A stretch of DNA of 37,939 nucleotides from an uncultured Chloroflexales bacterium (lineage in GTDB: Bacteria > Chloroflexota > Chloroflexia > Chloroflexales > Chloroflexaceae), in contig CALCJV010000076.1 of the NCBI GenBank assembly GCA_937967405.1, positions 1-37,939 on the forward strand. The letters run 5' to 3'. Shown one piece after another: positions 7,550 to 22,200 of this stretch (its first letter is position 1; each line of letters begins with the position of its first letter). The translations under genes and the position numbers were made by a program. Below the pieces are notes generated by a model. The model was given only the letters and a program-made list of their open reading frames with translations. It was not told the origin of the DNA and did not search any database.

Positions 7550-8494
7550 CTACGCCCCAAGCGCAGCGACAATCGTATCCATATTATGCCGCATCATGCC
7601 GATGTAGGTTTCGGCTCCACTGCTCGGCGCACCCATCGCATCCGAGTAGAGTTCGCCACCGAGTCGTACAGGCTGCCCAGTTGCGTTGTGCACTGCCGCT
7701 TGGACGGCTTCAATGGTACGCGGTGAAACGGTCGTCTCAATAAAGATCGCGGGTACATTGCCCTCAATGATGATCTGGGCCAGTTCCTGAATATCCGCCG
7801 CCGATGCTTCCGCTTGGGTACTCAAGCCCTGCACCGCCGCAACCTCGAAGCCATACGCCCGCCCGAAATAGCCAAAGGCATCGTGGGCCGTCACGAGCAC
7901 CCGCCGCTCAGCCGGGATCATCTCAGCTTGGGCCAAGAGGTAGGCGTGCAGCTCATCCAGCTCAGCCGCGTAAGCCATCGCATTGGCCTGATAGGTTGCG
8001 GCATTGCTTGGGTCTGCATCCGCTAGGGTTGTAGCAATCACTGCAACCACCTCTTTCCACAGGCGCACATCATTCCACACATGAGGATCATAGGGGAAGC
8101 CCGCTTCCGGCTCCCATGATAACAGATTGGCCCGATCAAGCTGATTGCCCAGCAGCACCACCCGCTTGCCTTCGCGGGTCGCTAGCTGCTCAAGGACACG
8201 ATCCATCCGCGCTTCGAGGTGCAGCCCATTGGCAAAGATCACATCAGCTCGTTCCAACTTCCGCAGATCAGACTCGGTGGGGACATAGGTGTGCGGGTCA
8301 ATGCCGGGGCCCAGTAACATCACTAGCTCCACCTGCTCACCGGCTACATTCTGCACGGCATCGCCGATCTGCTGCGTCGTCACCAATACCGTCAGCCGTT
8401 CGGGGGCGGCGGGGGCAGGGGCTGTGCTACACGCCGCCACCACCACAGTCATCCCAACCAGCATGATCATCCAGCGCACGTGTTGGAGCATCAT
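7550..8494 (-). CDS. metal ABC transporter substrate-binding lipoprotein (TroA/MntA/ZnuA family)
   Basis: A 314-aa cluster 9 (A-I) solute-binding protein. The N-terminal hydrophobic stretch ends in the lipobox VVAAC (Cys22), so it is a lipoprotein. Metal-ligand positions of the family are visible: His68 in GIDPHTY, His138 in YDPHVW, then TAHDAFGYFGRAYG. No His-rich loop typical of ZnuA is present and the DPHVWND motif is TroA/MntA-like, so Mn or Fe is as likely as Zn. I start at 8494, behind AAAGGAAG, rather than at the in-frame ATG at 8557, which would bury the signal peptide. It is the first gene of the ABC operon. Confidence 0.92.
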   Translation of the reverse strand: MMLQHVRWMIMLVGMTVVVAACSTAPAPAAPERLTVLVTTQQIGDAVQNVAGEQVELVMLLGPGIDPHTYVPTESDLRKLERADVIFANGLHLEARMDRVLEQLATREGKRVVLLGNQLDRANLLSWEPEAGFPYDPHVWNDVRLWKEVVAVIATTLADADPSNAATYQANAMAYAAELDELHAYLLAQAEMIPAERRVLVTAHDAFGYFGRAYGFEVAAVQGLSTQAEASAADIQELAQIIIEGNVPAIFIETTVSPRTIEAVQAAVHNATGQPVRLGGELYSDAMGAPSSGAETYIGMMRHNMDTIVAALGA

Positions 8495-8564
8495 TCTTCC
8501 TTTCGTATCTGCTCGGACAGCCATCGTAGGCAGTCTAGTTAAGTTTAGGGTGAGCAAGAGTATT

Positions 8565-8582
8565 TTTTAGCTATACCTAAAA
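8565..8582. promoter_or_regulatory. DtxR/MntR-like operator palindrome
   Basis: TTTTAG, six bases, CTAAAA form an 18-bp palindrome whose shape fits DtxR-family operators. Its distal half overlaps the -10 (8579-8584) of the minus-strand ABC operon promoter, a position that would block transcription. A partial copy of the half-site (GTTTAGGG, 8543-8550) lies just downstream. The regulator is inferred. Confidence 0.6.
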
Positions 8583-8607
8583 TAACACAAGAGAAGGCTT
8601 TCGTCAA
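8579..8607 (-). promoter_or_regulatory. promoter of the metal ABC operon
   Basis: Read on the minus strand: TTGACG (8607-8602), a 17-bp spacer, then TATTTT (8584-8579). The leader to the ATG at 8494 is about 75-80 nt. The -10 is inside the DtxR-like palindrome. Confidence 0.6.
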
Positions 8608-8653
8608 GGGCACACCGGGGCAGGCTGATCGAGAATCAGGCCGGAAGCGTACC

Positions 8654-8733
8654 ACGCAGCGTTGTGCTGAGCCGCCGTATGCCGCGTAGGCTCACCACTG
8701 CGCGGTGGGCGTGATGCCCTCAGCACCCTGCGT
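8654..8733. repeat. long imperfect inverted repeat between the divergent metal promoters
   Basis: ACGCA (8654-8658) and GTGCTGAG (8664-8671) pair with CTCAGCAC (8719-8726) and TGCGT (8729-8733). The 47-base interior can fold again through CACC and GGTG. It lies upstream of the feo -35 and upstream of the ABC promoter, so it is in neither predicted transcript. It may be a dispersed repeat; its segment CGCGTAGGCTC recurs inverted at about 15128. Confidence 0.45.
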
Positions 8734-8747
8734 AGCGAAACATCCAC

Positions 8748-8776
8748 TTGACAGGCGTGATTATAAGGGATAAACT
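8748..8776 (+). promoter_or_regulatory. promoter of the feo operon
   Basis: Consensus TTGACA at 8748-8753, a 17-bp spacer and TAAACT at 8771-8776. The predicted start near 8783 gives a leader of about 50 nt to feoA. Confidence 0.7.
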
Positions 8777-8816
8777 AGCTTTGTAAGTATTTACTAACGG
8801 TTCCGATTAGTTTATC
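8769..8816. promoter_or_regulatory. inverted repeat flanking the feo transcription start
   Basis: GATAAACTA (8769-8777) and its exact complement TAGTTTATC (8808-8816) are 30 bp apart. The left arm covers the -10. Between them lies a smaller dyad GTAA-N4-TTAC (8783-8794). This is a good repressor-site candidate; the sequence does not match a classical Fur box. Confidence 0.5.
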
Positions 8817-8832
8817 AGAAAGAGGGCTGGCA

Positions 8833-9090
8833 ATGTCTGCACCCGAATTACACGCACCGGCAATCCCACTCGCCCGCCTGCACGTTGGGCAAGCAGCAAC
8901 GATTGTGCGCGTCGGCGGCGAGAAAGCTACCCGCCGACGGCTCCTCGATATGGGCATGACCACCGGCGAAACGATCTGTGTCGCCCGTGTTGCACCGCTC
9001 GGTGATCCGATTGAAATCCTCGTGAAAGGCTACTACTTGTCGCTCCGCAAAGCTGAAGCGAACCAGATTGATGTGGTGGTGCAGCCGTGA
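8833..9090 (+). CDS. feoA: FeoA family protein (first copy)
   Basis: An 85-aa SH3-like FeoA protein. The conserved core RRRLLDMGMTTGETICVARVAPLGDPIEILVKGYYLSLRKAEA matches the family, which assists the ferrous-iron permease FeoB at the cytoplasmic face. The ATG follows GAGGG. Its stop overlaps the GTG of the second feoA by 4 bp, and it is the first gene of the five-gene feo operon. Confidence 0.93.
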   Translation: MSAPELHAPAIPLARLHVGQAATIVRVGGEKATRRRLLDMGMTTGETICVARVAPLGDPIEILVKGYYLSLRKAEANQIDVVVQP

Positions 9091-9368
9091 GCGATATGCA
9101 CAACACCCCCCAGCCTGTGTCAAGCTCCCCGCTCATCCCGCTCAGCCTCGTTGCGTGTGGGCAGTGGGTATGGGTGCGTGATGTTACGGCAGATGCCAAA
9201 AGTAGCCACCGCCTTCATGATCTTGGTATTGTGCGCGGCGCACGCTTGCGGATGGTGCAAGATGATGGGCGGCTCATCCTCGTTGCGGTCGGCGATACCC
9301 GCGTCGGCTTGGCGCGGGGCCTCGCCCAGCGCGTGCGGGTTCAACTTGAGGAGGAAAGTGCAGCATGA
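9087..9368 (+). CDS. feoA: FeoA family protein (second copy)
   Basis: A 93-aa second FeoA domain protein, clearly diverged from the first ([46 protein letters not shown]). Tandem FeoA genes are common in bacteria with separate FeoA and FeoB. The start is GTG at 9087, overlapping the previous stop; an ATG at 9096 is possible. Its stop overlaps the feoB G-domain gene as ATGA, so the proteins are translationally coupled. Confidence 0.9.
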
Positions 9369-9892
9369 ACCCAACCAACACTGTGGCCCTAGCGGGCAAC
9401 CCTAACGTTGGCAAGAGTACCATTTTCAATGCCCTGACGGGCGCACATCAGCACGTCGGCAACTGGCCCGGCAAAACGGTTGAGCAAAAGGCGGGCACCC
9501 TCAAGCTCGCCGATCAGGTCATCCGCATCGTGGATTTACCGGGCACCTACAGCCTCTCGGCCTATTCGCTTGAAGAACAGATTGCCCGCGACTTCATTGT
9601 GCTCGAACGGCCTACACTAGTGATTAATGTGGTAGATGCAACCAATCTTGAGCGCAATCTCTACCTCACGGCCCAGCTGCTCGATACCGGCACACCGCTG
9701 ATCCTCGCCCTGAATATGCTTGATGTTGCCCGCGAACGCCAGCTTCAGATTGATACGGCCCAGCTTGCACAGGCACTCGGCGGTATTCCCGTGGTTGAAT
9801 TGGCGGCCCGGCAAGGCACGGGCATCGCCCAATTACGGCAGACCCTCGCTACCACGCTTGCCCAACTGCACCCGCTCGCATTGGCAAGCTAG
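9365..9892 (+). CDS. feoB: FeoB GTPase domain as a separate protein
   Basis: A 175-aa protein holding only the G domain of FeoB: G1 GNPNVGKST (residues 11-19), switch I region ending [13 protein letters not shown]3 DLPGTYSL, G4 NMLD, and a [11 protein letters not shown] segment at the G5 position. It ends just after the G domain, where normal FeoB continues into a helical domain and the membrane channel. That remainder is the next gene. The G motifs are intact, so this is a functional split rather than a decayed gene. Confidence 0.92.
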
Positions 9893-9928
9893 GAGGCCGT
9901 TACTTCTCTACGATAAGGAGCGATTTCG

Positions 9929-11719
9929 ATGACTCTCAATCCGACCCTCAAGTCACGCCTCACACAGCCGTCGCACCCAGCCGCTGTGCCTGCCGCACCA
10001 ATGGCAAGCACCGCCATGCGTTACGATAGCCCGATTGAGGCAGCGATCACCCAGATCAGCGCAACCCTTGCCGCCCACCCCACGCTTGCCACACAATACC
10101 CGCCGCGCTGGCTGGCCATCCAGCTCCTCGAAGGCGACGAAGGGCTAACGACGCTGGTACAGGCGACACCGAACAGCACCGCAATCCTTGAGCAGGTGTC
10201 CAATCAACACGCCCACCTTAGCGCACACTACAATGATGATCTCGATGTGGTGCTTGCCGATCAACGCTACCGCTTTGTGCATCAGGTTGTGCAGCACACC
10301 CTCACCCGCCCCGCCGCGCCCGCCGCTACCATCTCGGATCGGATTGACCAGATTGTCACCCACAAGTGGCTGGGCATCCCGATCTTCTTGCTGCTGATGT
10401 GGGTCGTCTTCAAGCTGACCACCGATGTGTCTGCACCCATGCTCGATTGGGTAGACGGCGTGATGAGTGGGCCGCTCACGGCGTGGAGCATCGCCCTGCT
10501 CGGCACACTGGGGCTAGGCGGCACATGGTTCGAGAGCCTTGTGGTAGATGGCGTAATCGCAGGAGTTGGGGGGGTGCTCGTGTTTGTGCCCGTCTTGCTC
10601 GCCCTGTATTTTGCGCTGGCTCTACTCGAAGACTCCGGCTACATGGCGCGGGCCGCATTTGTGATGGATCGGCTGATGCGGACGCTAGGGCTGCACGGCA
10701 AGAGCTTCTTGCCCATGATCGTTGGCTTTGGCTGCAATGTGCCGGCCATCTATGCGACCCGCACCCTTGAGCGTCAACAGGATCGAATTCTCACCGGCTT
10801 GCTCGTGCCGTTTATGAGTTGCAGTGCGCGGTTGCCCGTCTATGTTCTCTTGGCGGCAATCTTCTTTCCCACGCAGACTGGACTAGTGGTGTTCAGTCTC
10901 TATCTGCTTGGCATTCTCGTCGCAATCTTGCTCGGCATCATCTTGAAACATACGCTGTTCAAGCGCAGCGAGCAGATCCCATTTATCCTTGAGTTACCGC
11001 CCTACCGTATGCCGACGATCCAGAGCATCTGGCGGCAGATGTGGGAACGCACGGCGGCCTTCGTGCGGAAAGCGGGGACGATCATTCTGGCTACGAGCAT
11101 TGTAGTGTGGCTCTTGATTGCCACGCCCGTGCGCGGGGCGGGCAGCTTTGCCGCCACTGAAATGGATGACAGTGCCTTTGCCGCAGTGGCGGGCAGTGTT
11201 GCGCCGATCTTTGCCCCGCTTGGCTTCGGCTCGTGGGAAGCGAGTGGCGCACTGCTCACCGGCTTCGTGGCGAAAGAGGTGGTGGTCAGCACCATGAGCC
11301 AAATTTACGCAGTGGAGCCAGAAGCCGCCGCCGATGAAGACCTAGCCACCCTCTCTGTCGTAGATGGTCTCACCGAGATCGTCACCAGCTTTGGCACTGC
11401 CGCCCTCGATACGCTCAAGGCGATCCCCTTAGTCATTGGGATCAACCTTACCGATGCGGAAGCAGAGGCAGAGCCAACGGCCTTGATGGATACGTTGCAG
11501 ACCAGCTTCGAGCAGGCGAGTGGGGGGCATGGCACGCTCGCGGCCCTCGCCTTCCTCGTGTTTGTGTTGTTGTATACGCCGTGTGTGACGGCGGTGGCTG
11601 CTGCTCGCCAAGAGTTCGGCAATAAGTGGATGTGGTTCAGCATCATCGGGCAGTTTACACTGGCGTGGATCGCGGCTTGTATGGTCTTCCAAATCGGGCG
11701 GCTGCTCGGTTTAGGCTAG
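9929..11719 (+). CDS. feoB: FeoB membrane permease domain, lacking the G domain
   Basis: A 596-aa protein that starts after the G domain. Residues 1-30 are a polar, low-complexity leader. Residues 31 to about 130 match the FeoB helical domain (YPPRWLAIQLLEGDEG). From about 140 there are hydrophobic helices with the Gate motifs SGYMARAAFVMDRLM, GFGCNVPAIYATRTL and SCSARLPVYVLLAAI, then GFVAKEVVVSTMSQIY. It carries Fe(II) across the inner membrane, powered or gated by the separate G protein. Its own RBS (AAGGAG) lies in the 36-bp gap. Confidence 0.92.
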   Translation: MTLNPTLKSRLTQPSHPAAVPAAPMASTAMRYDSPIEAAITQISATLAAHPTLATQYPPRWLAIQLLEGDEGLTTLVQATPNSTAILEQVSNQHAHLSAHYNDDLDVVLADQRYRFVHQVVQHTLTRPAAPAATISDRIDQIVTHKWLGIPIFLLLMWVVFKLTTDVSAPMLDWVDGVMSGPLTAWSIALLGTLGLGGTWFESLVVDGVIAGVGGVLVFVPVLLALYFALALLEDSGYMARAAFVMDRLMRTLGLHGKSFLPMIVGFGCNVPAIYATRTLERQQDRILTGLLVPFMSCSARLPVYVLLAAIFFPTQTGLVVFSLYLLGILVAILLGIILKHTLFKRSEQIPFILELPPYRMPTIQSIWRQMWERTAAFVRKAGTIILATSIVVWLLIATPVRGAGSFAATEMDDSAFAAVAGSVAPIFAPLGFGSWEASGALLTGFVAKEVVVSTMSQIYAVEPEAAADEDLATLSVVDGLTEIVTSFGTAALDTLKAIPLVIGINLTDAEAEAEPTALMDTLQTSFEQASGGHGTLAALAFLVFVLLYTPCVTAVAAARQEFGNKWMWFSIIGQFTLAWIAACMVFQIGRLLGLG

Positions 11720-11738
11720 CAGAAAGAGGAGCAGAACG

Positions 11739-11999
11739 ATGTTACAGCAAGTGCTACACGCTCTTGAACAGGCCCAGCAGCCCTTGAGCCTGAACGATCT
11801 GGCCGTGCAGGTGGGCGTGGATACGGCAACCCTCGAAGGGATGCTCGCCTTCTGGGAGCGCAAGGGGCGGATTGTGCTGCACGATGGGCAGGCGTGCATG
11901 TCGCGTGGCTGCGGCGGGTGCAGCCCGACGGGCGGGTGTGCGTTTGCTGGCCCATCGCCACGGGCGTTCCTGCTTGTGCCGGATGAGCGCAAGCCGTAG
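11739..11999 (+). CDS. feoC: FeoC-like winged-helix protein with Cys cluster
   Basis: An 86-aa protein. Residues 1-50 form a small winged helix (LNDLAVQVGVDTATLEGMLAFWERKGRI). It is followed by four cysteines, C53-x4-C58-x2-C61-x5-C67, the Fe-S-type wing of FeoC. In FeoC this cluster is thought to sense oxygen or iron and affect FeoB stability or activity. The RBS GAGGAG precedes the ATG, 19 bp after feoB. It is the last gene of the operon. Confidence 0.85.
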   Translation: MLQQVLHALEQAQQPLSLNDLAVQVGVDTATLEGMLAFWERKGRIVLHDGQACMSRGCGGCSPTGGCAFAGPSPRAFLLVPDERKP

Positions 12000-12066
12000 C
12001 GGGTGCTATGCGCCTGCGGGCGGGCAGGGTGGGCGTAGGTGATAGGGGTCAGGTATCTGGGGACAG

Positions 12067-12162
12067 CCCACCACCCGCCCCCGGATACCCCCTTCGTGTT
12101 CTTCGTGCTCTTTGTGTTCTTCGTGGTCTGCCTTCCTGACCTGCCACCCACCACCCGCCCCC
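12067..12162. repeat. TTCGTG 9-bp tandem repeat bracketed by a 16-bp direct repeat
   Basis: Four 9-bp units of the form TTYGTGNTC occupy 12093-12128. The 16-mer CCCACCACCCGCCCCC occurs at 12067-12082 and again at 12147-12162. The phrase GGGGTCAGG at about 12046 also recurs near 15097. Tandem TTCGTGxTC tracts are a known type of intergenic repeat in many bacterial genomes. I see no coding capacity in 12000-12176. Confidence 0.7.
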
Positions 12163-12176
12163 TGCCCAGATCGGCC

Positions 12177-12953
12177 CTACGCGGGCGGGCGCGTGTACTC
12201 CCCGCCCGGCCGGAACAGCACGGCGTGGCTATACGCCGCCGCCCACTCGGCCCCAAACAGCCGCGCCAACATGGCCCCGCCGGGCGTTTTGGCCATATCA
12301 GCGAGGCTGAAGTGCTGCTGCGCTGCAAAGGTCTGGGCTGGATCGCCGTGCGGTGTCGCGGTGGCACACAGCTGGAGGTAGCCGTGCAGGTAGGCCGTGT
12401 AGGCCGCGTGCAGTTCGGGCAGGGGGATGCTCGCCCGTGGGCGGAGATAGAGCAGGTGCGGCGAGAACGAAGCAGCCACCCAATCGGGCAGCTCTGGGTC
12501 ATTCGGATAGTGCGCGAACTGGGCCCGGATGGCGGGGAGCGTGGCGGGCATGGGGCGATGCTGGCTCATCGGAACCCAATCCATCACCGCCAGATTGATG
12601 CTCCCATTGATGCTCACCACCTCCGCCCCGCACAAGGGCAGATCGTACTCCAAGCGCGGAAACAGCAACACCGACACAACGCTGGTGCGTGTGCCCACGC
12701 GCAATAACGCCACCCGCGCCCAACCTAGCACCGCCGTCTGCCAGACATAGGTCGCAATCGTGGCGGGCTGCTCGCGCAGCGTCCCCTGATGCGTCGCCCA
12801 CTGCGGCGCAAGCTCTAGCGGCACTGCATCGGCTAGCCCCGTGAACGCCTGCTGCGTTGTCCGCAGCATTGCCGTTGGCAGATCAACGAGAGCCGCCGGA
12901 TCAGCCGGATCGGTATGCTCAGCGTGCTGCGCCGCCTCAGGGAAGGTTGCCAT
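12177..12953 (-). CDS. ferredoxin-dependent bilin reductase family protein (PcyA/PebA-like)
   Basis: A 258-aa protein matching the fold-specific pattern of ferredoxin-dependent bilin reductases, which reduce biliverdin with electrons from ferredoxin. Recognisable landmarks are LLFPRLEYDLPLCGAEVV (97-113), AVMDWVP (122-128), LPDW then LYLRP (155-172), QQHFS (212-216), AKTPGGAML and FGAEWAAAYSHAVLF (234-248). Against Synechocystis PcyA from memory, catalytic Asp105 corresponds to Asp125 here, while Glu76, His88 and Asp220 appear replaced by Ala, Ser and Ala. It is therefore a divergent member, with altered product or substrate possible. Its length fits the family. The ATG lies one base after the stop of the preceding gene, so the two are coupled. 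No heme oxygenase is visible. Confidence 0.75.
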   Translation of the reverse strand: MATFPEAAQHAEHTDPADPAALVDLPTAMLRTTQQAFTGLADAVPLELAPQWATHQGTLREQPATIATYVWQTAVLGWARVALLRVGTRTSVVSVLLFPRLEYDLPLCGAEVVSINGSINLAVMDWVPMSQHRPMPATLPAIRAQFAHYPNDPELPDWVAASFSPHLLYLRPRASIPLPELHAAYTAYLHGYLQLCATATPHGDPAQTFAAQQHFSLADMAKTPGGAMLARLFGAEWAAAYSHAVLFRPGGEYTRPPA

Positions 12954-12954
12954 C

Positions 12955-13803
12955 TCAGTAGTGTTCCCGCAGCGCAAGGTATTGCGGGCTGCTGAGTTGG
13001 GCAAAGAGGAACGTGCGATGATCAGCGACGTGTTCGGCGGGCAGCTTGCTGAGCGGCAGGTGCAGGAAGGGAACCCCGTGCTCAGCCGCCAGCGCAATGA
13101 TCGCCGGATCGGGGGCGTGCTCGCTGTAGTACACAAACGGCTTGCCCGCGCAAAAGGCGAACATCACCCGCAGCCACGCCTGCCGTGCATGGCGGGATTG
13201 CCGCCCCAAGCGCACCAGCGGCGCAACGACCTGCGGGTAGAACTGGCGGCGCGGATTAGCCTCATACGGATCGAGCGTGGCATCGGTGGTGATCAGCGAG
13301 AACACCCGCCGCCGCACCGTCACGAGGCATGGGTTCTCTTGGATCACGATCTGGCGGTGATGTTCCCACGAGGTACTGCCAATCGTGGTCAAATCAGGGT
13401 CTACCCAGCCCCCGCCGGATAAGCCCGATAGAGCCATCTCAGTCCAGAAGGTGTCCGTATCGGGGATACTCTCCCAGTCAATGCAGCCATTGGTAAACAC
13501 GAGTGAAGGTGGCGCAAAGCCGACCGCCGACTTCTTGACCCCGTGCAGTTGGGCTGGAGCATAGCGGGCATACTCACCCGCATACCAGAGGGCATGCCGC
13601 ACAAAGCGCGTGTAGTCTGCCATTTGCAGCGGATCGCCAAACCACGCGAGCGCGGCATCTGGGTAGGCAGGTGGCAGATAGGCGTAGTAGGGTGGGCAAA
13701 CCCGGCTCATTGTTGCCACAGGCATCTCCTTCGTTCCAACCGATTCAGCATCCGCCCCTAAGTCATCCGCCGTAAGTGCTTGCCACAGGCTTAGTGTCGT
13801 CAT
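12955..13803 (-). CDS. unrecognised 282-aa protein coupled to the bilin-reductase-like gene
   Basis: I do not recognise this family. It appears soluble, with no signal peptide or membrane segment, and is Tyr/Trp/Pro-rich near the N-terminus (VCPPYYAYLPPAYPDAALAWF, 35-55). Ordered segments include LVFTNGCIDWESIPDTDTFW (101-120), SWEHHRQIVIQENPCLVTVRRRVFSLI (145-171) and a C-terminal alternating helix/strand region (WLRVMFAFCAGKPFVYYSEHA, then HGVPFLHLPL). Residues H148-H149 are an adjacent His pair. The start at 13803 follows GAAGGAGC; an upstream in-frame start is less likely. Only one base separates it from the downstream gene, suggesting a joint function in tetrapyrrole or bilin metabolism, which is inference. 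Confidence 0.7.
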   Translation of the reverse strand: MTTLSLWQALTADDLGADAESVGTKEMPVATMSRVCPPYYAYLPPAYPDAALAWFGDPLQMADYTRFVRHALWYAGEYARYAPAQLHGVKKSAVGFAPPSLVFTNGCIDWESIPDTDTFWTEMALSGLSGGGWVDPDLTTIGSTSWEHHRQIVIQENPCLVTVRRRVFSLITTDATLDPYEANPRRQFYPQVVAPLVRLGRQSRHARQAWLRVMFAFCAGKPFVYYSEHAPDPAIIALAAEHGVPFLHLPLSKLPAEHVADHRTFLFAQLSSPQYLALREHY

Positions 13804-13919
13804 TGCTTGCTCCTTCAATGCAGGCCCATCCGCCACATTCGGCGTTCCCCGCGAGTTGTGTTGATTATCATGGCTAGCCCCCGCCAGCCAATCCCAAAGC
13901 CCTGCGCCCCATACTGCGC

Positions 13920-15023
13920 CTATGCCGTAAAGGGCACATACTCTAGCCCAAATGCCTCTGCAACGGCTGGATAGGTGATTGCGCCGCGATAGGTGTTCAG
14001 CCCCTTTGCGAGCACCGGATCGGCTTGGATCGCCGCCTCGGCCCCCAGATTAGCGAGCGTCTTCATATACGGCACGGTGGCGTTGCTCAACGCAATCGTA
14101 CTCGTATGCGGGACTGCGCCGGGCATATTGGCCACACAGTAATGCACCACATTGTCTACGGTATAGACTGGATCGGAGTGGGTGGTAGCGCGGGTAGTCT
14201 CAATGCAGCCGCCCTGATCAACAGCCACATCCACCACCACACTGCCCGCCTGCATGGTGCTAATCATCTCGCGGGTGACGAGGTGCGGAGCGCGGGCCCC
14301 CTTGACCAGCACCGCCCCAATCACGACATCGGCCGTGCGGACGGCCTCAGCGATGCGGGCATGATCGGCGACTTGGGTTGTAAAGCGTCCGTCCAGCACA
14401 TCATCGAGGTAGCGCAGGCGATCCAGATTGGTATCAAGGATCAACACCGCTGCGCCCAGCCCCAGTGCCATCTTCGCAGCATTGATCCCAACGACACCAC
14501 CACCAATAATCACGAAGCGGGCGGGGAGTACGCCGGGCACCCCGCCGGGCAGCTTGCCTAGCCCACCGTGCGGCTTCATCAGGTAATAGGCGGCCATTTG
14601 GGTCGCCATGCGCCCAGCCACTTCGCTCATCGGGGTCAACAGGGGCAGCGTGCCATTGGGTAGCTCTACCGTCTCGTAGGCAATGCCCGTCACTTGGCGG
14701 CGCACCAGTTCGAGGGTCAGGCTCTCAGCGGCGGCAAGGTGCAGGTAGGTGAAGAGCAACAGGTTGGGGCGCAGGTATTCATATTCGCTTGGCTGCGGCT
14801 CCTTGACCTTAATCACCATATCTGCTGCCCATGCATCTGCCGCCGTCGGGACAATCTGTGCGCCGGCCGCTACGTACTGCGGATCAGCAAAGCCACTGCC
14901 CACCCCTGCGCCGCTCTCCACCAGCACTTGATGCCCGTTACTAGTCAGTTCGCGCACGCCAGAGGGCGTAGCCGCAACGCGATTCTCCCGATCCTTGATC
15001 TCTTTGGGTAAGCCGATCACCAT
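13920..15023 (-). CDS. ald: alanine dehydrogenase
   Basis: A 367-aa NAD-dependent L-alanine dehydrogenase (alanine to pyruvate plus ammonia). It begins with the family signature [15 protein letters not shown]. The substrate residues Lys and His lie in VIKVKEP and LFTYLHLAA, the Rossmann motif is [19 protein letters not shown], and the C-terminal half has [12 protein letters not shown] and [13 protein letters not shown]. The start is the ATG at 15023, with GAGAGGAG 8 bp upstream, rather than the earlier TTG at 15041 that precedes the SD. An extended -10 TGCTACAAT on the minus strand (15080-15072) is the likely promoter. Confidence 0.95.
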
Positions 15024-15202
15024 CACACCAACTCCTCTCAACCGCTATGGGCTTGATTTACTTTGCCCTCTATTGTAGCATGGGTCAGGTGCAAGATGTT
15101 AGGGGTCAGGCAGCAGGTAGCACACGGAGCCTACGCGAGCGAGGGAGCCGCTGTGCGGGCGATCCGTAGGTGGATGGAGCTTGCTGCACAGACTGCAAAC
15201 AT

Positions 15203-15241
15203 CAACGCGGGCAGCAAAGCTAACTCTGCCTGCCCGCGTTG
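15203..15241 (-). terminator. 12-bp hairpin downstream of the Trm112-like gene
   Basis: CAACGCGGGCAG (15203-15214) and its exact complement (15230-15241) enclose a 15-nt loop. It sits 28 bp after the stop of the gene ending at 15270. No good U-tract follows, so termination strength is uncertain. Confidence 0.55.
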
Positions 15242-15269
15242 GGGTGAAGATATTAGGTAGGTCTAGGGC

Positions 15270-15611
15270 TTACTTCTCGATCAGGCTCTCGTCGCGGTGC
15301 TTCTCGCCTTCTTCAATCAACATAATCGGGATGCCATCTTCCACCGGATAGCGGAAGCCATTGCGCGGATTCAGGAGCCACTCCTTACCGCTATTGTCGG
15401 TGATCAGCTTAACGGGGCCCTTATCCGCCGGATCAGCCAGAATCTCCAACAGTTCTGGGCTGATGCTCCGTTTGGCGGGAGGTGTGCTCGCCCCGCCACC
15501 CGCCGCCGGAGCCGTATCAAACACGTTATCTCGACGATACTGGCGCACGGCCCGTACAATTAGGAACCCAATAGCGACGACGGCCAAGATACCTGCGATT
15601 TTCTTCCACAT
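15270..15611 (-). CDS. membrane-anchored Trm112-like protein without zinc cysteines
   Basis: A 113-aa protein with one N-terminal TM helix (about residues 4-21, WKKIAGILAVVAIGFLIVRA), a Gly/Pro/Ala linker (34-48) and a C-terminal Trm112/UPF0434-like domain (ISPELLEILADPADKGPV, then GFRYPVEDGIPIMLIEEGEK). In the family the first knuckle is usually Cys-Pro-x-Cys; here it reads DPAD, and the second pair is also missing, so zinc is probably not bound. The start at 15611 follows AGGAGG, 6 bp upstream. Function unknown; Trm112 proteins normally stabilise methyltransferases. Confidence 0.8.
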   Translation of the reverse strand: MWKKIAGILAVVAIGFLIVRAVRQYRRDNVFDTAPAAGGGASTPPAKRSISPELLEILADPADKGPVKLITDNSGKEWLLNPRNGFRYPVEDGIPIMLIEEGEKHRDESLIEK

Positions 15612-15685
15612 AGAAATCCTCCTGTTTTGCTCTGATGCGATTCGTTCAACCTTCAAGTAACAGCTCCGCAATCATTCCACCGTAT

Positions 15686-15713
15686 ACTATACTATGATTG
15701 AAGGGGATGTCAA
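15686..15713 (-). promoter_or_regulatory. promoter of the Trm112-like gene
   Basis: On the minus strand: TTGACA (15713-15708), a 16-bp spacer and TATAGT (15691-15686), about 75 bp before the start codon. Confidence 0.6.
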
Positions 15714-15743
15714 ATGCGCCGCCCTAACCCAACCTCCTTGTCG

Positions 15744-15766
15744 CACAGGAAAAACGAGCGTATACT
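15744..15766 (+). promoter_or_regulatory. candidate promoter abutting the DUF488 start codon
   Basis: TATACT at 15761-15766, with a weak -35 TTGTCG about 17 bp upstream (15738-15743). The predicted start of transcription falls at or next to the ATG at 15774, which would give a leaderless or nearly leaderless mRNA. Confidence 0.4.
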
Positions 15767-15773
15767 GGAGGGT

Positions 15774-16280
15774 ATGAACCTCGCAACACTTGGCTACGAA
15801 GGCCTCAACCTAACGCAGTTTTTCGCCATCCTGCACGCCCAGCGCATTGAAACGCTCGTGGATGTGCGCCAGCAGCCGTTAAGCCGCAAGGCAGGCTTCT
15901 CGAAGTCGGCCTTGCGGGCGGCTGCGGAACAACATCAGATGGCCTATGTCCATCTTGTTGCGCTAGGCTGCCCCCGCCCAATCCGCACAGCATACCGCCA
16001 AGACAACGATTGGCATCACTACACGGAGCAGTATTGTGCCTATCTGGAAACACAGCACGCGGTGTTGGCTGAGGTCGCCCAACAGGTACAGCAGGAACGC
16101 TGTTGCCTGATCTGTTTCGAGGCCGATTACCGTTCCTGCCACCGTATGTTTGTGGCCGATGCCCTTCGCGCACGCATCCCCGCGCTTCAGGTGCAGCACC
16201 TTACTATTCGAGACGGTGCGCCCCTACACTTGCCTCACTCCAACTGCGCGAGCAACTCCCGCGCCCGCCCCGCCAGATAA
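15774..16280 (+). CDS. DUF488 family protein
   Basis: A 168-aa protein. The family core is visible: ATLGYEGLNLTQFFAIL (3-19), TLVDVRQQPLSRKAGFSKSALRAA, LVALGCPRPIR and the CCLICFEADYRSCHRMFVADAL motif near residue 105. DUF488 proteins are small and often found beside metal, nitrate or stress genes; no activity is established that I can assign. I take the ATG at 15774 rather than 15714 because it matches the family start; GGAGGG lies only 1 bp upstream. The 3' end overlaps the convergent giant gene by 46 bp, so the last 15 residues are encoded antisense to that gene's C-terminus. Confidence 0.85.
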   Translation: MNLATLGYEGLNLTQFFAILHAQRIETLVDVRQQPLSRKAGFSKSALRAAAEQHQMAYVHLVALGCPRPIRTAYRQDNDWHHYTEQYCAYLETQHAVLAEVAQQVQQERCCLICFEADYRSCHRMFVADALRARIPALQVQHLTIRDGAPLHLPHSNCASNSRARPAR

Positions 16281-19200
16281 TGCTGCGGGTCGAGTTCGAG
16301 GAAGCGTTGCAACGCCGTCCGCGCCGCTTCGGGGCGGTTGCGCTGGAGCAGTAGCTCGCCTCGCCGGAAGTACGGCTCCGGGGCATTGGGGTCAGCCGCT
16401 TGGGCAAGGTCCAGCGCGGCTTCGGCTTTGTCCAGCTCGCCCCACGCCAGCAAGCCCGTAGCCAGCTTGTTCCAGTTGTTCACATCTGGTCTGCGCTCGG
16501 CGGCACGCCGATACGCGACTTCGGCTTCCGCGAAGCGGCCCGCTTGGGCAAGAATATCGCCCCACAAATGATGCACGCCAATGTCATCGGGGTTTGCCTG
16601 CGCCGCTACGGCCAAAACGGCGGCGGCATCATCCAGCCGCCCCAGCTCGCGGTAGCGCACCGCCAAGCCAAATACCAAAGGCCCATTGGTCGGGTCGGCT
16701 TGGACCTGCTGCTCAAGCTGCACCAGATCGGCGGCTGGCTCAACCACAGCTGGCGCACGGCCCGCACCTTCATTTCGCAGCACAGGCCCTTCTAGCACAT
16801 TCGCGGGCGGCGTACCCGGCTGCCGCGCTGTCTCGCTGAAATCGAAGGGCGGCGGCACAGCATAATTCGAGGGCACATCGCGCACACGGTAGATCACCAC
16901 GCCCGGCGTATTGTACACTACGTCGAGGTAATTCTCCGTCATCGCTTGGAACTTGTCCAGCCCAGCCGCTTCATAGAAGGCATACTCTATCGCCCCAACA
17001 TAGATGTAGTTGATGCGATACTTGGCAATCGTGCGGAGCTTCGTTTCAACATCTGTCGTGCGAAAGAAGGTATCTATCTCGCGGTCGCGCAGCCCCGCCA
17101 CCACCGGATCACGCTGCTCATTCACATGCAGCGCACTAATCACGGTGGGCAAGCCGGTGTTGGCGGCCATGCGAATGCCATAGGCCCGGTAGAACCAAAG
17201 CGGCGATTGCACGATGATCGGCGTGCCTTCGATATTGGCATTCAGCCACGCTGTCGCTTGGGCATCCGGCTCAAGGTTGATGGTTAGGGTAGCCATGTTG
17301 GGCGGGCAGCCCGGAAACGAATTACACGGATACTCGAACGTGGCCGTATCAAGAAACGCCAGCCCATCCAGTGTCGGCGGCGGCGATACGGCAAACCGGT
17401 TGCTGGCTTTGCTGGGCGTGCCCGCCAATGGGTACACCAAGCCCGCCAGCAGCGGCACTGCCAGCAGCACAAGCAACCCCGCCTGCGCTGTTGGACCACC
17501 GATGCCGGTGCGCTGCCCAATCCGCCCCACCCCGCGGAGCAGGATCGGCAGGGCCGCAGCGGCAACAAGCGCAAGCAGCACCCACACCTGCAAGCCAAAC
17601 TTAAACACCGTATTCATGCGGTAGAAGTCGCCGCCCACCAAATGATCGCGGATGTACACATATTCGATGCCGAGTGAGATACTCGCCGCCGTTGCCACGA
17701 GCAGCAGCAGGAACCATGTGCTGCTCGCCAAGCGGCGATTGAAGAACAGCACCACGCCCACCCCAATCAGGGCGAGCAGCAGCAGTTGCAAGCCCAGCAC
17801 GGGTCGGGTGAAGCCCGCGATGCCGATCAGGAGCAGCATGCCCGCCCCACTCAAAACCCCCACCGTGCGGAGCACGGGCGTGGGGCGCAACCAGAAACCC
17901 CACAGCAACCGCACTACAACCCCGATCACGAAGGGCAGCACGAAGGCGAGGAAGATGCCATACAGCACGAGATATTCGGGCAAGGTCGTGCCACCGAATT
18001 GTACCCCAATGCCCGAAACCATCGCGTAGAAGTGATCGAAGAAGGGCGTATAGAGCACCATCCCACCGATTGCCAGCACCGCCGCCAACACGCCTGCCGC
18101 AACCAATGCGCCCCATGCCACCCCCGTGCGCTGCGTCCGCCACGCCGCACCAAGCATTGCCGCACCAGTGAGCAGGGTGTAGGTCGGGAAGTCCCACGAA
18201 TTGGTGACGGCAAGCGTACCAAGGATCAGTGCGGCTGTGCCATACAGCAGATAGGCGTAGCCATCGAATGCGAGCGGCACGCGGCGGTGCTGTTCATACA
18301 GCCGCAGAGCTAGCGCAATCGCCAGCAGCGTGATCGGCAGGGCGATCAGGTGCGGGTGCAGATCAGCGTAGAGGAAGCTAAAGTAGGGGAACTCATTGAT
18401 TGTGCCCTCCACGATCCGGCTTGGCCCAATGAACCAATCGCCAAGCCGACCGCCAAAGCCCGCCGGATCGCCGTTGCGCCACGCCTGTAGCACTGAACTC
18501 AGCCCGCGTGACCAGCCGACGGTGAATACCCCCCCTAGATTGCCGACCACACCCACCAGCACCGCCGCCAGTAGCCCATAGCGCAGCCGACCGGTCAGGT
18601 GGGCCACAAGGCTGCTTGCCCCGGCCAACACTAAGCCAAACAGCGTCGCCAACGCGAGATTGTAGGCGATGGCCGGGGCGATGCCGGTGAGCTTGATTGG
18701 GATTGAGAGGAGCATATAGCCGTAGTAGTAGTAGTTGATGTAGCCATCACTAAAGAACGGATCGTAGGGGGGCATCACCGGACTGCGGAGCACCGCATTG
18801 AGGAAACCAAACTCCATCGGCTTCTCGCCGCCCCACACGGGATGCCACAGATCGGGATTGAACGCCCGCACCAGCGCAAACCAGATGAAGCCGTTTACGA
18901 AGATCGCCTCGCCCGCGAGCAACTCGCGGGACCGCGCCTGCACCACCTGCCAGACGTGCGCCGCACCGCGTAGCACCGGCATGCGGGCAGGGGCAGCAGG
19001 GGCAACCGCAACATCGGCGGCGGGGGCGGCGGGGGCGGCACGGCGACCGAGCCAGTGCAGCAGCCCTAGATTAAACAGCAACACCAGCCCTAGCCCGCCC
19101 AGCACCCCAACCAGATCATACCGCCACACGCCGTAGCTCGTCGGCAGCCAGACCGCGTAGCTGAACAGGATCAGACCAAGCAGGCGGGCCCACACCAGCA

Positions 19201-22200
19201 GATCGCCGCGCCACGCCGCAAACAGGCTCACCGCCAACGGTAGCCCTAGCACTGCCAATACCACAAACGCCAGCCACCACAGCCCCGCCGCGAGCCAATC
19301 GTTGCTGCTTGCGCTCTGGTTCCACGCATAGCCAGCAACAGCCGGTAGCTCATTCACAGGGGTAGCGAGGAGCAGCGGCGGGGGTGTCCGCATGCTCGGC
19401 GGGGTGGCGGCAAGATCAAAGGTGAAGACGGTTGGATCGCCGGGGTTCACCTTACGGTAGATGCGCGTTGGCCCACTATCGTAGACCTTCTCCAATGCGC
19501 CCTGTGCAGTTAGCGTCTCGAATTTGCTGAGGCTCTCTGGGCTGTAGAGGGCTTGCTCGACCCCACCGACATACACATACTCAATCCCGTAGAGATCAAG
19601 CAGTTGCAGCGTCACCGCCGGATCGGGGTTGCCATAGATTTGCTGGATCGCACTCTGGCGGTTGCTAATCACCTGCCCCGTATTCACCGCCATGCGCTGC
19701 TGCACCTGATGCCATTCCCAACCCAGCAGCGTCGGCAAGCCGGTGTAGACCGCCACGCGCCCCGCCCAGCGATAGGATGGCAGATGCGCTTCGAGGATGA
19801 TCGGCGTACCCTGAATGTTGGCTCGCAGCCACTGGATCGCGGCCCAGTCATCGGCCAGCAGGAAGTCGCGCCCATTTTCGCCAAAGCGCACGTTGGGGTT
19901 TTCCATAAAGCGGCTGCCGTGCAATGTCTGCGGCAGATCATCGGTATACCGATCTGCGAGGCGGGCGGGAGTAGCCGTCAAGGGGTAGACCAGCGACGCA
20001 AGGATCAGCAGCACCACCGCCCCGCGCCACACCCACGCCGCCGCCCGCAGATTGTCACGCTGGAGTGGCGCGGGCGTGGCTGCCGTGCCTGCGCCAGTTG
20101 AGCGCGGCGCAGTGCCGAGCCGCCACAACCACGCTACCGTGACGGCGGCCGTGAGACCGGCAAGCAGCCACGCATGCAAGCCAAACTTAAACACCGTGTT
20201 CATGCGCCCCACATCGCCCTGCACGCGCACGATCTCTACGCCCGCAATAATCCCGATGGCCAGCGTGCCCCATAGCACGGGCATCAGCTTGCGCGGGTGC
20301 TGCTCGCGCAGCAGCCACAGCAGCGCGAGGGCCGCACCGAGCAGGGGCAACAGCAGCACCAATGCGGGCCAGCCGCCAATTCCGTCTGGCTGATCGGGCG
20401 CAGGCGCGGGCGGGGGTGAACTACTGAGCCAGACCCACACCAGCCACAGCCCAATGCCACTGGCAATCCCTACGAGGAACGGCAGCACGCGACTCTCGCT
20501 GAGGCGAGCCGGCACGTCTGTGCCGCGCAGGGTGCGCCACGCCAGCACTAGCCCGCCACTGATCAAGATGAAGTACCACAGCCCATACAGGCGCAGGCTG
20601 TCCCACAGATTGGTGCGCTCGGCAAACAGAATCTGCTCGGTGAAGGTACTCCGCCCGCCCTCCTTGAGCAGCTCAATCCCGCTCGACTCAGTGGCGAAGT
20701 GGGCAAAGAACGGTTGGAACAGCAGCGTGCTCAGCCCTAGCACCAGCACCACCTGTCCGAGCCACAGGCTCCCCGCCCGCAGCACCTGCCACGCCGCACT
20801 ATCCGTGCTAGGCTGGGCCAGCGTGCGCCGCAACGCAGCCCACGTCAGCAGCAGCAGTGTTGCTACAGTTAGGGCCGCAAAGGTCGGGAAGTCCCATGTA
20901 TTGGTCACACGCAGCGTGCCAATCAGCCAGCCGAGCAGCACCAGCATACCCACGCCTGCGCCAACGGGCAACCCCAACGGGCGGCGTACCAGTGCTACCA
21001 GCACTGCCACCACTGCCAGCGCAAAGGGCATCACAATCATATGCGCGTGCAGATCGGCAAACAGGAAGGTGAAGAAGGGGAACTCATTGATTGTGCCGCG
21101 CACAATCCGCGTCGCATCCCAGAAGGCCCATTCGGGGCGATGCGTATTGGCTGCGGCATAGCCATTCAAGAACCACAAGGCCTGCACCAGATTGCCCAGC
21201 AGGAGGATAAAGATCGGCGCAAGCAGGGCTGTAGTGATGGCGTTGCGTTCAAGGCGCACCCACCAGCGCGGCGATGGGCTTGGCGCGGGGGCTGTGGGCG
21301 GCGTGGGTGCCGCAGGCGGGGCGGCTACAGGATCGGCTGCATATGGCTGGGCATCCGCTTGTATCGTATACGCCACGCCCGCCGTATTATAGGCGAATGG
21401 GGCGGATTCGTGCAAGCGGCGCAGGCGATAGCTACGCGGGGCAATCAAGTTGTAGATGATGCCCCACGCCCCGACGGCCACAAGCGCAAACAAGGTCGGG
21501 ATGGCGAGGTTGTAGGCGACATCCGGCACAATCGTGGTCAGGTGAATCAGCGTGCCGACAATCACGAAGCCGAAGTAGTAGTAGTTGATGTGGCCCCCTG
21601 CAAACCACGGATCAACGGGCGGGAAGGCGGCACTCCGTAGCACCGCGTTCAAGTAGCCAAAATCCATCGGCTTTTCGCCGCCGCGTGCAGGGTGCCACAA
21701 ATCGGGGTTTTGCCAGCGCAGCAGCAACATGGCCGCAAATGCCAGTAGGTACAAGGCTTGCGCCGTAAGTATGGCGTTGCGCCGCTCGTGCCAGAATACA
21801 CGCAGTTCACTGCGGCTGTGCCACGCGGCCCACGCCCCGCCTGCTAGCAACGGTGTCGCCGCTAGCCAGACGGTTGGGGTGCTGAACGGAAGCAGCTTGA
21901 AGCTACCGAGCAGCCATGCCAGCCACGCCACCCACAGCAAGCCCATCACCCGTGCCAGTGTTAGCCCGCGATCTGGGAGCCAGTGCAGCCACCGGAACAG
22001 TAGCGCAAATGCCGCCAAGCCGAGCAGTTCGAGCGTGAGCAGCCACACCAGCGGTGCAAGCAGATCGCTGTTGATCGGGCTAGCCGGATCGAAGGCGGCG
22101 GCCCATGTGCCCCCAGCGCGGTAGCGTGGCCACTGCTCAGGGGTGAAGCGTAAGCCGGTATGCGAGCGTTCGGCATACTTCACGCCAACGTTCATCACCT

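Follow-up and report, generated by a model that had tools for sequence, protein, structure and literature searches.

The open reading frame at 12177..12953 (minus strand) of the window, i.e., the whole stretch of 37,939 nucleotides analyzed here, encodes a ferredoxin-dependent bilin reductase (FDBR) of the pre-PcyA type, a protein of 258 aa in which none of the PcyA catalytic set Glu76, His88, Asp105, and Asp220 is retained. The best explanation, to which we assign a probability of about 0.55, is that this FDBR is active and that the bilin it makes by reducing biliverdin is the chromophore of a triple globin encoded elsewhere in the genome, in the service of light signaling. The window lies on contig C76 of a genome of 3.68 Mb, 88% complete, which holds this single FDBR and in which both pufL and pufM are present; the host is an anoxygenic phototroph of Chloroflexaceae, and the Chloroflexota-like origin proposed in the first-pass annotation was correct. 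The same family includes the MAGs SM2_1_1 (G214, a sister species in the same genus), SL_3_2 (G404), Prado088 (G400), and UBA1466 (G402).

Regarding its identity, the ORF encodes a real and correctly assigned FDBR. Each of the landmarks first noticed (FPRLEYDLP, MDWVP, QQHF, and FGAEWAAAYSHAVLF) is found in it, and the search set beforehand as the refuting test for the family assignment returned Pfam Fe_bilin_red (PF05996) with E = 7.6e-32 and 111 bits vs a cut-off of 31, the match spanning positions 4-227 of the 228 of the profile. In the PDB, the best phmmer match is Nostoc PcyA (2g18, E = 5.4e-17). The AF2 model, built from 12 sequences (pLDDT 85.2, pTM 0.83), has the alpha/beta/alpha sandwich of PcyA, so that the fold test, the second one set beforehand, was passed as well; VIA aligns it to PebA, PebB, and PcyA with Z 25-27 and rmsd 2.2-2.9 Å (PebA at Z 27.0, 2.2 Å over 222 residues; PebB and Nostoc PcyA at Z 26.9), and Foldseek gives the same best matches, while RCCR (Z ∼20) and coproporphyrinogen oxidase (Z ∼12-18) are weaker. 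A search of 8000-16500 against Rfam returned no family.

As for the active site, residues were numbered as in Synechocystis PcyA, fixed by the E76Q and D105N PDB chains, and were mapped both through the phmmer register and through a MAFFT alignment of 18 FDBRs. In either mapping, Glu76, His88, Asp105, and Asp220 correspond to Ala82, Ser94, Glu111, and Thr223 of the window protein; the changes announced at Glu76, His88, and Asp220 are real, and the claim that the aspartate matching Asp105 is kept was wrong. Neither the Asp of EYDLPL nor the one in MDWVP, which is D125, occupies the Asp105 position; D125 is invariant in all FDBRs aligned. In five Chloroflexaceae FDBRs, namely the window protein and four others 34-84% identical to it, both Glu111 and D125 are invariant. 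The Asp105 site holds Asp in all the PcyA, PebA, PebB, and pre-2-like sequences compared, and Asn in tomato HY2; a change from Asp105 to Asn impairs PcyA, and the literature search found no report testing Glu at this site. PcyA is close in fold and in PDB ranking, but the window protein scores 78.2 bits against the NCBIfam equivalog NF002760, whose cut-off is 206. Since all four catalytic residues are substituted, a product or a substrate different from that of PcyA, as suggested at first, is a reasonable expectation.

The protein belongs to a kind already described, because pre-1 pre-PcyAs without Glu76, His88, and Asp105 have been published, Chloroflexi included (Rockwell, Martin, Lagarias 2023, PMC10151467). 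The statement that the family is known chiefly from oxygenic phototrophs, cyanophages, and a few other bacteria must accordingly be widened, given the pre-PcyA published from Chloroflexi and from many heterotrophs (PMC10151467); published work puts these proteins forward as candidate ancestors of the enzyme producing the phycobilisome pigment. What is added here is a five-member Chloroflexaceae FDBR clade with an invariant Asp105 to Glu exchange, in genomes that all have a triple photoglobin-like protein. In the phylogeny, the five FDBRs form one starred clade (99/98) apart from the PcyA, pre-2-like, and PebA/PebB/HY2 groups, in a branching order that the tree leaves open. The tree covers references from these groups, and the likeness to pre-1 is one of description: the window FDBR, too, is without Glu76, His88, and Asp105 and comes from a non-oxygenic host. 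The published pre-1 gene cluster consists of a heme oxygenase, an Fe-S protein, two V4R proteins, and a BBAG, scattered clusters being noted as well (PMC10151467). Unlike this arrangement, no heme oxygenase, V4R, Fe-S, or BBAG gene lies beside the window FDBR, a heme oxygenase and a globin occurring elsewhere in the genome; it also differs by its coupling to an orphan protein, by the invariant Glu at the Asp105 site, and by a globin partner with three repeats. Two atypical pre-1 proteins, NJL04020 and NJO05336, are reported with BBAG-2-lineage globins (PMC10151467). Both may be orthologues of the window FDBR. From the style of their accessions, they may come from the same JAAU* MAG series as SM2_1_1 and SL_3_2.

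With respect to activity, both pre-1 and pre-2 FDBRs without PcyA residues reduce the A-ring of biliverdin to give phytochromobilin, the pre-1 protein tested doing so weakly, and the pre-2 protein CAP_1520, whose group occurs with a globin and with a B12-binding protein, carries out this A-ring reduction (PMC10151467). The window FDBR shares with pre-2 the associated globin and B12-binding protein, but pre-2 has Asp105 and an Asn at His88, where the window FDBR has Glu and Ser. Four FDBRs from Chloroflexia families f5 and f7, found in G390 (L010), G463 (L024), G497 (L028), and G499 (L027), keep Asp105 and Asp220 and have Asn at His88, and so match pre-2; in G390 and G463, the FDBR is accompanied by a B12-binding protein and an RGMC globin, which is the pre-2/BBAG-2 pattern described mostly for Myxococcales. 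In these two genomes, an ABM-domain-like protein (PF03992 in G390) is encoded between globin and FDBR; the PF03992 family includes IsdG-type heme-degrading enzymes. FDBRs are otherwise rare, with 4 in the 400 Chloroflexota genomes sampled and 13 in the 158 Chloroflexia genomes, and a profile search of genome contigs with the five-sequence FDBR alignment returned only the same Chloroflexaceae. Very divergent FDBR-like proteins, unsure in their placement, occur in G403 (L030), beside two heme oxygenase genes, and in tandem in G413 (L029, L031).

The FDBR gene belongs to a two-gene unit, in which it comes second. The first gene (12955..13836, minus strand) encodes P0002, a protein of 293 aa without a family match, and its TGA stop lies 1 nt before the FDBR ATG; gap and order are equal in SM2_1_1, and this identical spacing supports the ATG start of the FDBR. 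With this 1-nt gap, the FDBR is translationally coupled to P0002. P0002 has 94% identity with its SM2_1_1 counterpart and a dN/dS of ∼0.125 in this comparison, which indicates purifying selection; it had no match in Pfam, NCBIfam, PHROGs, or PDB, it was credible in 2 of 400 Chloroflexota genomes, with no convincing homologue beyond the genus in the collections searched, and none was found in the viral contigs, phages, and plasmids searched. Its AF2 model is unusable (pLDDT 38). The possibility that it descends from a heme oxygenase, a globin, or an FDBR and has diverged beyond recognition found no support, with hhalign probabilities below 1% from thin profiles and this unusable model. Weak matches across the phylum (E 0.002-0.05) were short, partial, and judged spurious: the best one lies on the minus strand of a locus whose plus strand encodes what look like real transporter proteins, and another falls in a PilT-like ATPase frame. 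A further weak match, with tblastn E = 0.055 in G246, falls in a frame of WD40 repeats. Upstream of the unit, a weak sigma-70-like match at 13864..13891 (minus strand; 1 found vs 0.4 expected in shuffles) is only suggestive of a promoter. The order alanine dehydrogenase-P0002-FDBR is common to the window and SM2_1_1, so that contamination is unlikely.

The neighboring iron genes, FeoA, FeoA, FeoB (as two ORFs), and FeoC, occupy 8833-11999 (plus strand), downstream of the FDBR. The first-pass annotation placed the FDBR beside iron-uptake genes, which is literally so; a link to iron was rejected, because the Feo genes are convergent and do not lie by the FDBR in SM2_1_1. FeoB is split (9365-11719, plus strand) into a GTPase domain, FeoB_N, of 175 aa and a membrane part of 596 aa. 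The window also has a single ORF of 2731 aa (16235-24430, minus strand), mostly transmembrane-like with a TPR-like C-terminal part, whose counterpart is split over several frames in the SM2_1_1 assembly.

The evidence on the role of the FDBR comes from other contigs and related genomes. That no heme oxygenase is visible holds for the window but not for the genome, where one is encoded on contig C137 (PF01126, E = 1.6e-14). In SL_3_2, the genes for a globin-like protein of 357 aa, a heme oxygenase, and the FDBR are consecutive on one strand, separated by short gaps, and form one operon. The globin of the host (C111:804-1895) is 42% identical to that of SL_3_2, and all five genomes with a Glu111-type FDBR carry such a triple globin, 42-43% identical over its full length to the SL_3_2 one. 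It is made of three repeats, each homologous to the other two (hhalign E 3e-7 to 4e-10), and its profile has weak but consistent phycobiliprotein and photocobilin matches (E 0.007-0.03 overall) that fall in separate domains, with phycocyanin alpha at E = 0.0066, the cobalamin-binding 8j2x/8j2w at E = 0.014, and allophycocyanin matched as well; from their entry names, we take 8j2x and 8j2w to be of the photocobilin type. The RGMC bilin-attachment motif of BBAG-2 is absent from the C111 globin, whose domain 1 has NCSTGM; the nearby Cys of domain 1 is missing in the FDBR-bearing G402, and a strict link between this Cys and the presence of an FDBR was not seen.

After the globin, C111 encodes a degenerate response regulator, a roadblock protein, a Ras/Arf-like GTPase, a DUF4388 protein, and a DICT-GAF-B12 protein, the B12 part of which is CarH-like (E = 2.7e-31). 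Like the photoglobins and photocobilins (PMC10979010), the C111 globin has domains similar to those of phycobiliproteins and photocobilins and shares its gene cluster with a CarH-like B12 domain; the differences are that the B12 domain belongs to another protein than the globin, that the globin is in tandem triplicate, and that the operon adds the GTPase and the roadblock protein. A light-sensing signature has been published for photoreceptor B12 domains, and the C111 motifs, GEGWH...EH and GxxxP, are close to it (PMC11796333). The globin/B12/GTPase operon is a putative light-signaling module.

The proposed mechanism would start with the C137 heme oxygenase, expected from its family to convert heme into biliverdin, which FDBR and ferredoxin would then reduce, most likely in one two-electron A-ring step giving a phytochromobilin-like bilin, with Glu111 as proton donor in place of Asp105. 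Phycocyanobilin would not be expected because the D-ring machinery, Glu76 and His88, is missing. The product would most likely be loaded onto the C111 globin as chromophore, and the signal would be read out via the B12/GTPase operon, an inference that draws on co-occurrence, on how the operon is built, and on the known examples of bilin-binding BBAGs and photocobilins. The altered active site, together with the light-sensor-like genes elsewhere in the genome, suggests that the FDBR supplies pigment for light sensing rather than photosynthesis. A role in gliding or phototaxis is speculation prompted by an MglA/MglB-like gene pair, and we hold as doubtful the fuller scheme of a split bilin/B12 photoreceptor in some filamentous anoxygenic phototrophs, in which the bilin from the Asp105 to Glu FDBR sits on the triple photoglobin, a separate CarH-like protein senses light through B12, both drive an MglA/MglB-like polarity switch for light-steered gliding, and P0002 is the dedicated partner of the FDBR.

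A different outcome, unlikely in our estimate, is that the FDBR is real but its product goes to another acceptor, e.g., a GAF-type photoreceptor, or serves as a free pigment or antioxidant, the globin operon being an unrelated co-occurrence. FDBR, heme oxygenase, and globin are in fact on three different contigs of the host (C76, C137, and C111) and so are not an operon there, and the triple globin is found in 11 Chloroflexia genomes without an FDBR match. Within the family, it is present in 7 of 8 genomes with an FDBR vs 10 of 33 others (p = 0.005 by genome), an association that is borderline by genus (p = 0.057), kinship being ignored in both; its association with heme oxygenase (13/17 vs 6/24) has p = 0.001, or p = 0.03 by genus, again with kinship ignored. 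Against another acceptor, the genome, 88% complete, showed no PHY-domain phytochrome, the three genes are consecutive in SL_3_2, the FDBRs of Chloroflexia families f5 and f7 also adjoin globins, and FDBR and globin decay in parallel in G246, where the FDBR is truncated (G246:C1, L011, 9081-9584), the globin has five in-frame stops, and the heme oxygenase is intact. In genus g2, the heme oxygenase lies ∼5 kb from the globin, and in G246 it is part of the globin gene cluster (G246:C97:80000-99000, L072, ∼13900-15230): this long form, ∼424 aa in total, is encoded between the GTPase and DUF4388 genes of the globin operon, and its C-terminal extension is weakly like the third globin repeat (hhalign 35%). 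Three nearly complete Chloroflexaceae genomes of genus g4 (G094, G198, and G230) have the triple globin and neither an FDBR nor a PF01126 heme oxygenase; either they have another bilin source or their globin does not use bilin, so that the globin by itself does not imply a bilin.

It is rather improbable that the FDBR is catalytically dead and kept for bilin binding or chaperoning, perhaps in a complex with P0002. Such a fate would fit the substitution of four of four catalytic positions, the tight coupling to P0002, and an evolution faster than that of the neighbors (dN/dS ∼0.24 vs 0.06 for alanine dehydrogenase, both against SM2_1_1). However, five sequences that have diverged down to 34% identity all keep an acid, Glu, at the Asp105 site, and HY2, which is also without Asp at this position, is an active enzyme. 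Characterized pre-1 and pre-2 proteins from which part or all of this residue set is missing are likewise active (PMC10151467).

Least of all do we expect a non-bilin tetrapyrrole as substrate, e.g., an opened (bacterio)chlorophyll catabolite as for the related plant RCCR: the fold common to RCCR, the reaction center genes of the host, and the position of the G400 FDBR ∼4.5 kb from bchH and of the truncated G246 FDBR ∼2 kb from acsF-bchH (gene identities by sequence reading) are outweighed by the weaker fold match to RCCR than to PcyA, PebA, and PebB, by the lack of bch genes nearby in those parts of the window genome, G214, G404, and G402 that were read, and by the heme oxygenase adjoining the FDBR in G404. 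A locus next to bacteriochlorophyll genes is possibly the ancestral arrangement.

In conclusion, the FDBR locus brings to light an orphan protein, P0002, which may serve the FDBR as a dedicated partner, and the Glu111 clade is a natural experiment on the replacement of the catalytic Asp105 by Glu. Together with the globin/B12/GTPase operon, this clade within Chloroflexaceae, which are green non-sulfur phototrophs, offers a testable role for the enzyme, which would be the supply of a chromophore for light sensing in gliding organisms.
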